From Microcaldota archaeon (lineage in GTDB: Archaea > Micrarchaeota > Micrarchaeia > CAILAH01): a stretch of DNA of 40,394 nt. Where the stretch lies: NCBI GenBank assembly GCA_026413685.1, contig JAOAKK010000003.1, forward strand, positions 1 through 40,394. Reading direction: 5' to 3'. A program made the position numbers and the translations under genes. This document shows positions 34,940 through 39,144 of the stretch, in pieces (position 1 is the stretch's first letter; every line of letters begins with the position of its first letter). The notes under the pieces are model-generated. The model searched no databases. It was not told the origin of the DNA and saw only the letters and a program-made list of their open reading frames with translations.

Positions 34940-35578
34940 ATGATTGCAGGAATTGACGAGGCGGGGCGCGGCTCCGTTCTCGGGCCTCTTTCAATTGCGC
35001 TCGTGTGTGGCGAGGAAGAGGATTTTCTATCCCTTGAGCTTGCAGACTCAAAGCTGCTCACACGCAGCGAGCGCGAGGCACTGTTTCCTGAGATACGCAA
35101 GAAGTTTTACACATCTTTTGTGCTTGTTACTGCAAAGGAGCTCAATGAAATGATGAAAAGGTTCTCGCTCAATGAGATTGAGGCGATAAAGGAGGCATAC
35201 CTGCTCGATGAGCTCCCTCTTGAGCCCCACGAGGTCATCGTGGACTCGCCCGATGTGCTGGAGCAGAATTTTGCACATCGCATAGCAAGGCATATGGCAA
35301 GAAAGCTTACCATCAGGGCCGAGCACAAGGCAGATTTAAATTACCCTGTTGTGAGTGCAGCATCAATAGTTGCAAAAGTGATCAGGGACTGGGAGATTGA
35401 CCGCATACGTGATGAGGTCGGGTATGACTTCCAGTCAGGATATCCTTCTGATGAGAAAACAGTTGCAGCCGTCCGTGAAATGCTCCGCACTGGCAAGGGC
35501 AAGGAGTATGTCAGGATGCGATGGAGCACTGTTGAGTCAATCATTGCAAGCCAGCAGAAGCTCCACGACTATTTTTAA
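34940..35578 (+). CDS. rnhB: Ribonuclease HII
   Basis: MIAGIDEAGRGSVLGPLSIALV, VSAASIVAKVIRDWEIDRI, DFQSGYPSDEKT. Confidence 0.95.
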   Translation: MIAGIDEAGRGSVLGPLSIALVCGEEEDFLSLELADSKLLTRSEREALFPEIRKKFYTSFVLVTAKELNEMMKRFSLNEIEAIKEAYLLDELPLEPHEVIVDSPDVLEQNFAHRIARHMARKLTIRAEHKADLNYPVVSAASIVAKVIRDWEIDRIRDEVGYDFQSGYPSDEKTVAAVREMLRTGKGKEYVRMRWSTVESIIASQQKLHDYF

Positions 35579-35609: not shown

Positions 35610-36950
35610 TTATGATATCTGCTCGCCAATCTCTTTTCCGAATCTTTCTAAGAACACGTTAAGCTTGTCCGCCTCGATTGTCGCACCCGCAGCAATATCG
35701 TGGCCGCCACCAACCCCTATCCCGTTGCACGATTTCTCAAGTGATTTCCCAAGGTTCAGGCCTTTTGCAATGAGTGCTCGCGTCCCCCTGCTGCTGAGCT
35801 TAATCTTTCCTTCTGCATCAAGTGCAATCGCAAGCACGGGCTTTTCAGGAGGTATTATGCTGTAGAGCATCCCCGCAACAATACCAATAATCCCATCATC
35901 AATCATCCCGCGCCCATCAACAAAGTAGAACGGCCCCATATCAACAACAGATTTCTGTGCGTATTCAATGCCGTCACGCAGCTGTTTCCTGTGCAGCTCG
36001 AGCAGTGCCTGCGCCCTTTGGTATGCGCCTTCCATCTTCAGCATGACCGCAACTCCAATATCAGGCTCGTTATGCCTGCCGCACGCATTTAGCAGTGTTG
36101 AGAATTCGCTCGCATCGCGCATCTCCGTCCTAGGCGGATATGTAAGGAGCTCGTAAACCTCACCAATAATCGAGCCGGCATCCCTCTTATGTCCTTTCTC
36201 ATAAAGGTAGGAGACGAGCGCAGAGCGCAGGCGCATCTTTTCATCCTCGCTCAAGCCCATGTATGACCTCCACTTGCCTTCAGCATCCTTTACGGCAATG
36301 CCTATCTTCTCATAAAAATCAAGCACGTTGCTCTCATTCCCCGTCAGCCCTGGCAGGAACGGCTCTGTTGAGTATAAGAGGAATGGCACAAGCGGCCTGC
36401 TCACCCTACCAAACATGCAAATATCCTTGTAGGCGTTAACATAACCTCCAGCTATCCCTTCCTCAAGCATTTTCTTGTTCCAGCCGTATAAAGGCGCCTG
36501 CACGTCACCCACCGCACCAACAATGCCAATGGGCGCAAGCTCCGGCAACCCAAACGTGAAATATGCAGTTGACGCGCCGCTCAGCTCACGCGAGCCGTCA
36601 ATCCCAAACAGCCTGGGATTAACCTGCAGGATTGGGCCTTCCTCGCATAAGTGATGGTCAATTATTACAATGCGTCGCTTGCCCATTTTTGATAGCTCTT
36701 CCTGCACGCTTCCGCCAAAGTCCGCGAGTATCACATCACGCTCTTTCCTTTTTGCAATCTCCTCAAGCTCTTTTTGTGCAAGCTTCCTGAAGCACAGGCG
36801 CGAGTATCCTTTTCCCATTTTTTCAAGCGCCGCTGCAACAAGCGCACCGCTGCTTATCCCATCCGCATCATAATGGTGGACTATGAGCACATCATCCATC
36901 CTGCTTATTTCCTCACGAGCCTCTTTGCACCTGGCAAGAAAGCTGCCCAT
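35610..36950 (-). CDS. DHH/DHHA1 phosphoesterase, archaeal RecJ-like
   Basis: VLIVHHYDADGISSGALVAAAL, VIIDHHLCEEGP, C-terminal GVGGGHDIAAGATIEADKLNVFLERFG. ATG 36950 preferred over TTG 36971. Confidence 0.9.
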   Translation of the reverse strand: MGSFLARCKEAREEISRMDDVLIVHHYDADGISSGALVAAALEKMGKGYSRLCFRKLAQKELEEIAKRKERDVILADFGGSVQEELSKMGKRRIVIIDHHLCEEGPILQVNPRLFGIDGSRELSGASTAYFTFGLPELAPIGIVGAVGDVQAPLYGWNKKMLEEGIAGGYVNAYKDICMFGRVSRPLVPFLLYSTEPFLPGLTGNESNVLDFYEKIGIAVKDAEGKWRSYMGLSEDEKMRLRSALVSYLYEKGHKRDAGSIIGEVYELLTYPPRTEMRDASEFSTLLNACGRHNEPDIGVAVMLKMEGAYQRAQALLELHRKQLRDGIEYAQKSVVDMGPFYFVDGRGMIDDGIIGIVAGMLYSIIPPEKPVLAIALDAEGKIKLSSRGTRALIAKGLNLGKSLEKSCNGIGVGGGHDIAAGATIEADKLNVFLERFGKEIGEQIS

Positions 36951-36972
36951 AACACAAAGTTCGGTTTCCAAG

Positions 36973-37728: not shown

Positions 37729-39144
37729 ATGCCTCTCTCATTTGAGAACACTTCTGAGATTAAGATACCTCAAAGCCCTCTTGAGAGGGTAATCGGGCAG
37801 GAGCACGTTCTTGAGATTGCACACATTGTTGCAAAGCAGAGGAGGCACTTGCTCTTGGTCGGACCGCCCGGCACAGGCAAAAGCTTCATCGCAAACACGA
37901 TTTCTTCAGCATTGCCCAGGCCAACGCAACAGGTTGCAGTATTGGGCAATCCGGAAAACCCTGACAGGCCAATCCTTGAAATCAAGACTGCTGAGGATAT
38001 TGAGCGCGAGAAAAAGGAAATTCTCAAGGCAAGGCTCATCGACCCGCGCGATGCGCCATACTATGTTTCTGAGCGGCTTGGGTTCAGGTGCAGGAAATGC
38101 GGCACAATAAGCGATCCCGAATCAAACATCTGCCTTTATTGCGGTGCTGAGAAATACAGGCGCAACCGCAACATTGAGGATATGTTCTCAAGCGCACCGC
38201 GGATATCGCGTGATGACAAGGTGCTCATGAAAAGAGTTACTCCTGAAGGCAAGGAGGAAGAGCTTACGTATGAGCGTGCGGGTGCAAAGGTGAAGGTGTA
38301 CAAGAATAAGCCGCGCGCATTGGGCGAGCAGCAAAGGAAAGTGCTTGTGCATCTTGACAGGAATACGTTTGTGCAGGCCACGGGCGCTTCCGAGTCAGAG
38401 CTGCTTGGTGATGTGAGGCACGACCCATACGGCGGGCATAAGGATATCGGGATCCCTCCGCATGAGCGTGTTGTCCCGGGCGCAATACACGAGGCGCATG
38501 AGGGTGTGCTGTTTATAGATGAGCTGTCCACGCTTGGCGAGCTGCAGAGATACCTGCTTACTGCAATGCAGGAGAAAAAGTTCCCCATAATGGGCAGGAA
38601 CTCGACAAGCACGGGTGCAGTGGTCAGGGTTGACAATGTGCCATGTGATTTCATACTGGTTGGTGCTGTCAACATAAACGATGTCCACGCAATCCTGCCA
38701 CCACTGCGCTCACGCATCATAGGTTCCGGGTATGAGGTGTTGCTGAATACCGTAATGCCAGACACTGAAAGGAACCGTGAGAAAATGGTGCAGTTCATTG
38801 CACAGGAGATTGCAAAGGATGGTCGCATACCTCATGCATCTTACGGTGCGTGCATGCGCATAATTGATGAGTCAAAGCTGCGCGCAAAGCAGATGGATGG
38901 CAAGGATGGCCTAACCTTAAGGCTGCGTGACTTGAGCGGCATCATAAAAATGGCAGGGGATATTGCAATATTTGATGGAGCCCAGCTAATTGAGAAAGAG
39001 CATGTTGAGCGGGCAATCAAGCGTGCGCAGTCAATAGAGGAGCAGCTTCTTGATACATATGGCAGTGCATTCCGTGCAGGGCAGAGTGATTATGCAGCTC
39101 TTTCAAGGAGCAAGAGCAGAGGCTATGCAAGCGAAGTAAGGTAA
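37729..39144 (+). CDS. LonB-like AAA+ ATPase with zinc-ribbon insert and no Lon protease domain
   Basis: RRHLLLVGPPGTGKSFIANTI; ATGASESELLGDVRHDPYGG, PGAIHEAHEGVLFIDELSTL, AMQEKKFPIMGRN, LRLRDLSGIIKMAGDIA are LonB-type. CRKC...CLYC at 38089-38142. Stop at 39144. Confidence 0.88.
   Translation: MPLSFENTSEIKIPQSPLERVIGQEHVLEIAHIVAKQRRHLLLVGPPGTGKSFIANTISSALPRPTQQVAVLGNPENPDRPILEIKTAEDIEREKKEILKARLIDPRDAPYYVSERLGFRCRKCGTISDPESNICLYCGAEKYRRNRNIEDMFSSAPRISRDDKVLMKRVTPEGKEEELTYERAGAKVKVYKNKPRALGEQQRKVLVHLDRNTFVQATGASESELLGDVRHDPYGGHKDIGIPPHERVVPGAIHEAHEGVLFIDELSTLGELQRYLLTAMQEKKFPIMGRNSTSTGAVVRVDNVPCDFILVGAVNINDVHAILPPLRSRIIGSGYEVLLNTVMPDTERNREKMVQFIAQEIAKDGRIPHASYGACMRIIDESKLRAKQMDGKDGLTLRLRDLSGIIKMAGDIAIFDGAQLIEKEHVERAIKRAQSIEEQLLDTYGSAFRAGQSDYAALSRSKSRGYASEVR

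Follow-up and report, generated by a model that had tools for sequence, protein, structure and literature searches.

The stretch of DNA analyzed here (the window, 40,394 nucleotides from a Microcaldota archaeon) carries on its forward strand, at positions 37729-39144, an open reading frame (ORF) that starts with ATG, ends with TAA and encodes a LonB-type AAA+ ATPase of 471 amino acids without a protease domain. Residue conservation was read from two alignments, one of 25 relatives of the same class (A1) and one of 42 sequences from four phyla (A2). In both, G45, P47, G48, G50, K51, and S52 of the Walker A motif GPPGTGKS (residues 45-52; 37861-37884), L261, D264, and E265 of the Walker B motif VLFIDE (residues 260-265; 38506-38523), and the sensor 1 residue N315 (38671-38673) are invariant. 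The segment GDVRHDPYG, common with LonB (residues 227-235; 38407-38433), is invariant or nearly so according to A1, A2, and the alignment to the structure 3k1j. R327 and R329 of the arginine-finger region PLRSRI (38707-38715) are invariant in A2, and in the sensor 2 region TLRLRDL (38920-38928) R400 is invariant and R398 at least 90% conserved in A1 and A2. The protein is probably a hexameric ring, and the residues needed for assembly and ATP hydrolysis are conserved.

The original prediction, made from the letters alone, had read the AAA+ motifs as those of an archaeal LonB and the Ser-Lys protease domain as absent, and both points were borne out by profile searches and structure prediction. 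The protein scores 367.8 bits against TIGR00764 (archaeal LonB), under the whole-protein cut-off of 516.6 bits because the protease part is missing; members from Thermoplasma, Altiarchaeales, and Thorarchaeota score 319-363 bits against the same cut-off. No match to PF05362 (Lon_C, the S16 protease) was found among the matches listed for the window protein (25 of 42 Pfam families, E ≤ 1), although these include ones far weaker in score. The ORF ends directly past the AAA lid, and the next one encodes a class I methyltransferase, which starts at GTG 39160 or ATG 39163; its closeness had been recognized before, at a distance of about 16-19 nt, and 15-18 nt separate it from the stop. The solved structures closest by sequence (phmmer) and by fold are 3k1j and 4zpx, both Thermococcus LonB, and the AlphaFold single-chain model (mean pLDDT 89) superposes on 4zpx_B with a target-normalized TM-score of 0.89. 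PADLOC gave generic AAA+ matches only, so that membership in a defense system was rejected, and PHROGs gave generic ATPase matches only. Compared with the LonB protease of TIGR00764, the protein has a LonB-type AAA+ module whose nucleotide-binding residues are intact but lacks the score, the S16 domain, and the membrane hairpin. Its identity as a LonB-type AAA+ module without a protease domain is secure, and it is very probably a non-proteolytic Lon-type remodeler.

At the site of the LonB membrane hairpin the protein has an insertion (residues 88-211; 37990-38361), bounded by the break of the phmmer alignment to 3k1j at query residues 87 and 212 and by a hydropathy scan. From Walker A to the LLGD motif no hydrophobic segment is present, the highest Kyte-Doolittle mean over 19 residues being 0.48 as against 1.9-2.9 in full LonBs, just as had been predicted. 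The insertion carries a zinc ribbon (residues 121-138; 38089-38142) whose four cysteines, C121, C124, C135, and C138, are invariant in A1 and A2; the original prediction had placed this ribbon correctly but misread its spacing as CxxC-x30-CxxC, where the true pattern is C-x2-C-x10-C-x2-C. This pattern occurs in every scanned orthologue with a complete frame and motifs, and the Pfam model Zn_ribbon_3 matches the window protein with an E value of 6e-4, below its cut-off. With four invariant cysteines, and with one stop-free frame recurring in separate assemblies from the same family, the feature is far beyond chance. The hydropathy, the invariant cysteines, and the lack of PF05362 among the listed matches support the proposal of a soluble, non-proteolytic, Lon-derived ATPase with a ribbon.

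The place of the protease domain is taken by a C-terminal tail (residues 440-471; 39046-39141) that is conserved by lineage and may dock to a partner. Micrarchaeota tails are of the EV[AGR] type, and the window protein ends in SEVR, that is, without a strict C-terminal hydrophobic-Tyr-X motif. A penultimate Tyr or Phe is found in 38 of 43 sequences grouped as Thermoplasmatota (of the five others, three are Micrarchaeota loci, L109-L111, placed there by mistake), in 19/19 rows from Altiarchaeota, and in 20/23 from Asgard, some rows repeating one genome. Tails outside Micrarchaeota read, for example, GYE, SYE, MFH, YFF, or LYG, following the pattern [GSM][YF]x or YFF, with the strict LYG in a few Asgard members.

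Our survey shows that the family is old and conserved in four archaeal phyla. Among 60 relatives from the same class (Micrarchaeota), 42 have an orthologue of about 470 amino acids without a protease domain, contig ends truncating a few of these; further orthologues were found in at least 88 of 243 Thermoplasmatota, at least 58 of 196 Asgard, and at least 22 of 29 Altiarchaeota genomes; the larger groups were evenly sampled under strict thresholds, so that the counts are lower bounds. None of the 148 genomes of the Methanophagales phylum yielded a member. Across phyla the orthologues keep the same architecture at about 470-510 amino acids, and, judged by length, the protease domain is absent throughout; relatives with a full one, which would have told against the original prediction, did not turn up. 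In a quick maximum-likelihood tree the family forms one clade apart from LonB (SH-aLRT 100) on a long stem, and its members sort mostly by phylum, with Micrarchaeota and Altiarchaeota each forming one clade; the order at the root inside the family is not secure, as the tree tool warns of long branches meeting between Thorarchaeota and LonB. Either the protease may have been lost here, or the family may have split off before the protease was joined. No experimental work on any member was found in the literature searched. A proteome study of Cuniculiplasma (PMC7285479) reports the expression of LonB (CSP5_1287) as well as of a "protease Lon homolog" (CSP5_1716), which may belong to the protease-less family. 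One assembly, Methanobacteriaceae 41_258, holds a 55%-identical member together with a normal Methanobacteriaceae LonB, probably on a contaminating contig.

The ATPase gene and lonB occur together in most genomes searched; on the other hand, one Thorarchaeota (Asgard) genome, G063, yielded the protease-less protein and no LonB match. The host genome encodes a separate full-length LonB with the membrane hairpin and the active-site serine motif GVEGDSASIS. The only other Lon_C in this genome (locus L002, G000:C46:9823-10206) belongs to a frame of 570 aa that has a hydrophobic segment at its C-terminal end and may encode a COG1750-type serine protease of the membrane; no AAA partner was seen adjoining it. 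The suggestion that the window protein might be the ATPase half of a split protease is therefore unsupported, since the host has a full LonB and its other Lon_C is not a soluble partner, whereas the rest of the original interpretation, a soluble, non-proteolytic, Lon-related zinc-ribbon ATPase, stands.

The survey also turned up variants of Lon outside the family. In some Micrarchaeota LonB is encoded by two genes: in genome G018 these lie on the same contig about 90 kb apart on opposite strands (L161:3317-4447 and L160:2699-4075), and in G026 at L163:4332-5702 and L164:5107-6087. The first half ends in an intein N-terminal sequence (TIGR01445 match in L161), and the second opens with an intein C-terminal-like segment followed by the protease half, so that the arrangement looks like a natural split intein; the same is suggested in G045, G054, and perhaps others. 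G012 has a LonB with a full in-frame intein at the same site (L162:2167-5457; Intein_splicing and LAGLIDADG matches), and the LonB frames of G031, G050, and G053 are similar to it in length. In bacteria, LonB-like ATPases (L088:5989-7224 and L093:5431-7245, to be compared with L090:5431-7755) keep the membrane hairpin, and the protease is missing in those of Leptospiraceae and Brevibacillus and degenerate-looking in that of Paenibacillus; the Leptospiraceae and Paenibacillus genes sit among apparent cobalamin genes. These hairpin-bearing bacterial proteins are an independent branch of protease-less Lon proteins.

Clustering of neighboring genes revealed one gene common to half of the loci, immediately upstream and on the same strand, which encodes archaeal DnaG (NF003108, 439-526 bits against a cut-off of 300). 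The two genes were counted as linked when dnaG lay in the same orientation no more than 1 kb upstream of the ATPase gene. Among genomes with both genes on one contig, they are adjacent by this measure in 81/83 Thermoplasmatota, 44/48 Asgard, and 12/19 Micrarchaeota; six Altiarchaeota loci (L128, L130, L132, L134, L135, and L137) show the same order of dnaG and then the ATPase gene. In a single-contig Thermoplasmatota genome that appears to be Thermoplasma acidophilum, the dnaG and ATPase gene matches share about 15 nt. Pelota (TIGR00111, 303 bits) is encoded directly after the ATPase gene in Thorarchaeota and in related loci of Asgard, so that the order is dnaG, the ATPase gene, and the pelota gene. 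Given one to three thousand genes per genome, such counts cannot be due to chance; the linkage of the family to dnaG is strong, and a functional partnership with DnaG is likely. No prior description of the link was found in the open-licence literature, which is no proof of priority. The linkage to an exosome subunit gene thus seen in four phyla does not extend to the window's genome, where dnaG lies on another contig (C15) with other neighbors, nor is the ATPase gene beside dnaG elsewhere in the window's own family; the partnership in this lineage is therefore drawn from relatives, and the original prediction could not have seen the link because the adjacency is absent in this lineage. The window's own neighbors (genes for a DUF2085 membrane protein, a RecJ-type nuclease, and the methyltransferase) are conserved only within the same family and were rejected as a guide to function. 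The nuclease gene (35610-36971, reverse strand) encodes an archaeal RecJ-family protein (NF053576, above cut-off) and adjoins RNase HII at 34940-35578, both ordinary housekeeping neighbors.

In the archaeal exosome, DnaG is a subunit of the cap and binds RNA (PMC4227792, PMC7667871); according to the former, it prefers A-rich RNA, its C-terminal domain is conserved where the exosome exists, and a primase role has also been reported and disputed. We tentatively favor, at somewhat under an even chance, a soluble, probably hexameric, non-proteolytic Lon-type motor that has common ancestry with LonB and acts as a partner of DnaG, probably in exosome or RNA-surveillance work. The ATPase would work with DnaG in one process, and this process may be RNA surveillance or decay because DnaG is an exosome cap subunit and pelota, of mRNA surveillance, follows in Thorarchaeota. 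The ribbon would be where the motor binds DnaG or RNA-protein substrates, ATP would be used to thread or remodel proteins and so open RNA to the exosome, and docking to a partner would fall to the conserved tail, on the side of the ring where a protease domain would sit. This remodeling mechanism we hold a shade more doubtfully than the reading as a whole. Gene linkage is no proof of physical interaction. A bolder version, which we consider rather unlikely, has an ancient ATP-driven ring devoted to the exosome of archaea, which would be recruited through DnaG and the zinc ribbon and would strip or unfold proteins from RNA for the exosome and, in Asgard, for pelota-dependent ribosome rescue. 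One family (f4) and a few others keep the dnaG and RNase PH (exosome) genes and lack the ATPase gene, which is therefore not essential to the exosome; for the same reason, gene loss following exosome loss was rejected. The host assembly, only 64% complete, yielded no RNase PH gene.

Could the gene simply be a LonB pseudogene or an assembly error that has forfeited its protease domain? The truncation relative to LonB is genuine and is the sole point in favor, but orthologues that are stop-free, of the same length class, and conserved at their C termini occur in more than 200 genomes of four phyla, so that a frameshift or pseudogene was rejected and the chance of either is negligible. The concern, raised with the original prediction, that the stop at 39144 might be a sequencing error found no support, as independent assemblies of the same family share the stop-free frame. 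The ATPase could also serve a two-part protease, unfolding proteins with its tails docked on the 20S proteasome, as with PAN and Cdc48, or working with a separate Lon_C protein. The conserved tail, with its penultimate aromatic residue in most Thermoplasmatota, all Altiarchaeota examined, and most Asgard, resembles the HbYX motif (PMC11475706), and 20S proteasome genes are present in all 60 relatives. In most tails, however, the residue that should be hydrophobic in HbYX is not, being often Gly or Ser, and Micrarchaeota have EV[AGR] tails despite possessing proteasome genes, so that proteasome absence was rejected as the cause of these tails. The usual neighbor is dnaG and no proteasome gene, and a soluble Lon_C was not found, the hydrophobic C terminus of L002 and the lack of an AAA partner seen beside it leading us to reject a split protease of that kind; on balance, a two-part protease is improbable.

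An explanation closer to LonB would make the protein its regulator or adaptor, a soluble paralogue that joins membrane LonB in mixed rings or brings it substrates. The AAA+ module is common to both and most genomes have both genes; nevertheless, the family is a separate clade on a long stem, its insertion differs from that of LonB, no linkage to lonB is seen, and G063 has the gene and no LonB match, making this role very unlikely. A replication or repair factor acting with DnaG as primase, for example an AAA+ loader or remodeler at forks, draws on reports that DnaG acts as a primase in vitro and interacts with MCM (cited in PMC4227792), on dnaG having PolB3 or RPA genes nearby in some archaea (PMC2643942), on MCM, RuvB, and ComM being among the AAA+ relatives by fold, and on the RecJ-type nuclease and RNase HII genes near the window gene. 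The same survey of gene context reports dnaG near PolB3, RPA, or PACE12 genes and, in the part available, mentions no Lon-like gene. Yet Thermococcus DnaG interacts with the exosome rather than with the replication network (PMC4227792), the Asgard linkage extends to the translation-surveillance gene pelota, and the best matches by fold and sequence are to Lon, a protein-threading motor; we thus regard a replication role as unlikely.

The family differs from each of the systems that come closest to it. Of these, archaeal LonB (TIGR00764; Thermococcus onnurineus Lon, 3k1j and 4zpx) has the same AAA+ module, with 35-37% identity over the structure alignment and like Walker A and B, GDVRHDP, sensor, and arginine-finger residues; it has the S16 protease and the membrane hairpin, whereas the family has neither but an invariant zinc ribbon, a conserved tail of its own, and dnaG linkage. 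LonC of Meiothermus (MtaLonC, 4fw9 series), the next-best structural match with a Lon-type fold, also splits the two activities of Lon, keeping the protease without ATP-powered unfolding (available part of PMC3391209), and the family is the reverse case. PAN and Cdc48 are likewise ATP-driven rings without their own protease, with a tail whose penultimate residue is aromatic, as in most members outside Micrarchaeota, but they belong to a different AAA+ subfamily, and in our family the strict HbYX is mostly missing and no linkage to proteasome genes was seen. The likely partner is the archaeal exosome cap (Rrp4, Csl4, and DnaG), given the family gene directly downstream of dnaG in four phyla; the available parts of the sources describe no ATP-driven ring in this complex.

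As the family matches only the LonB protease model by score, annotation by similarity would name as proteases proteins that have no protease domain. It is the mirror image of LonC, the two activities of Lon thus separating both ways. With its linkage to dnaG in four phyla, a Lon-type motor that lacks the protease offers a testable handle on the archaeal role of DnaG and on whether an ATP-driven helper assists the exosome of archaea, and its reach into Thermoplasmatota, apparently including T. acidophilum, makes it testable in a cultivated organism. If true, an exosome-dedicated ring would join Lon-type unfolding to RNA decay.
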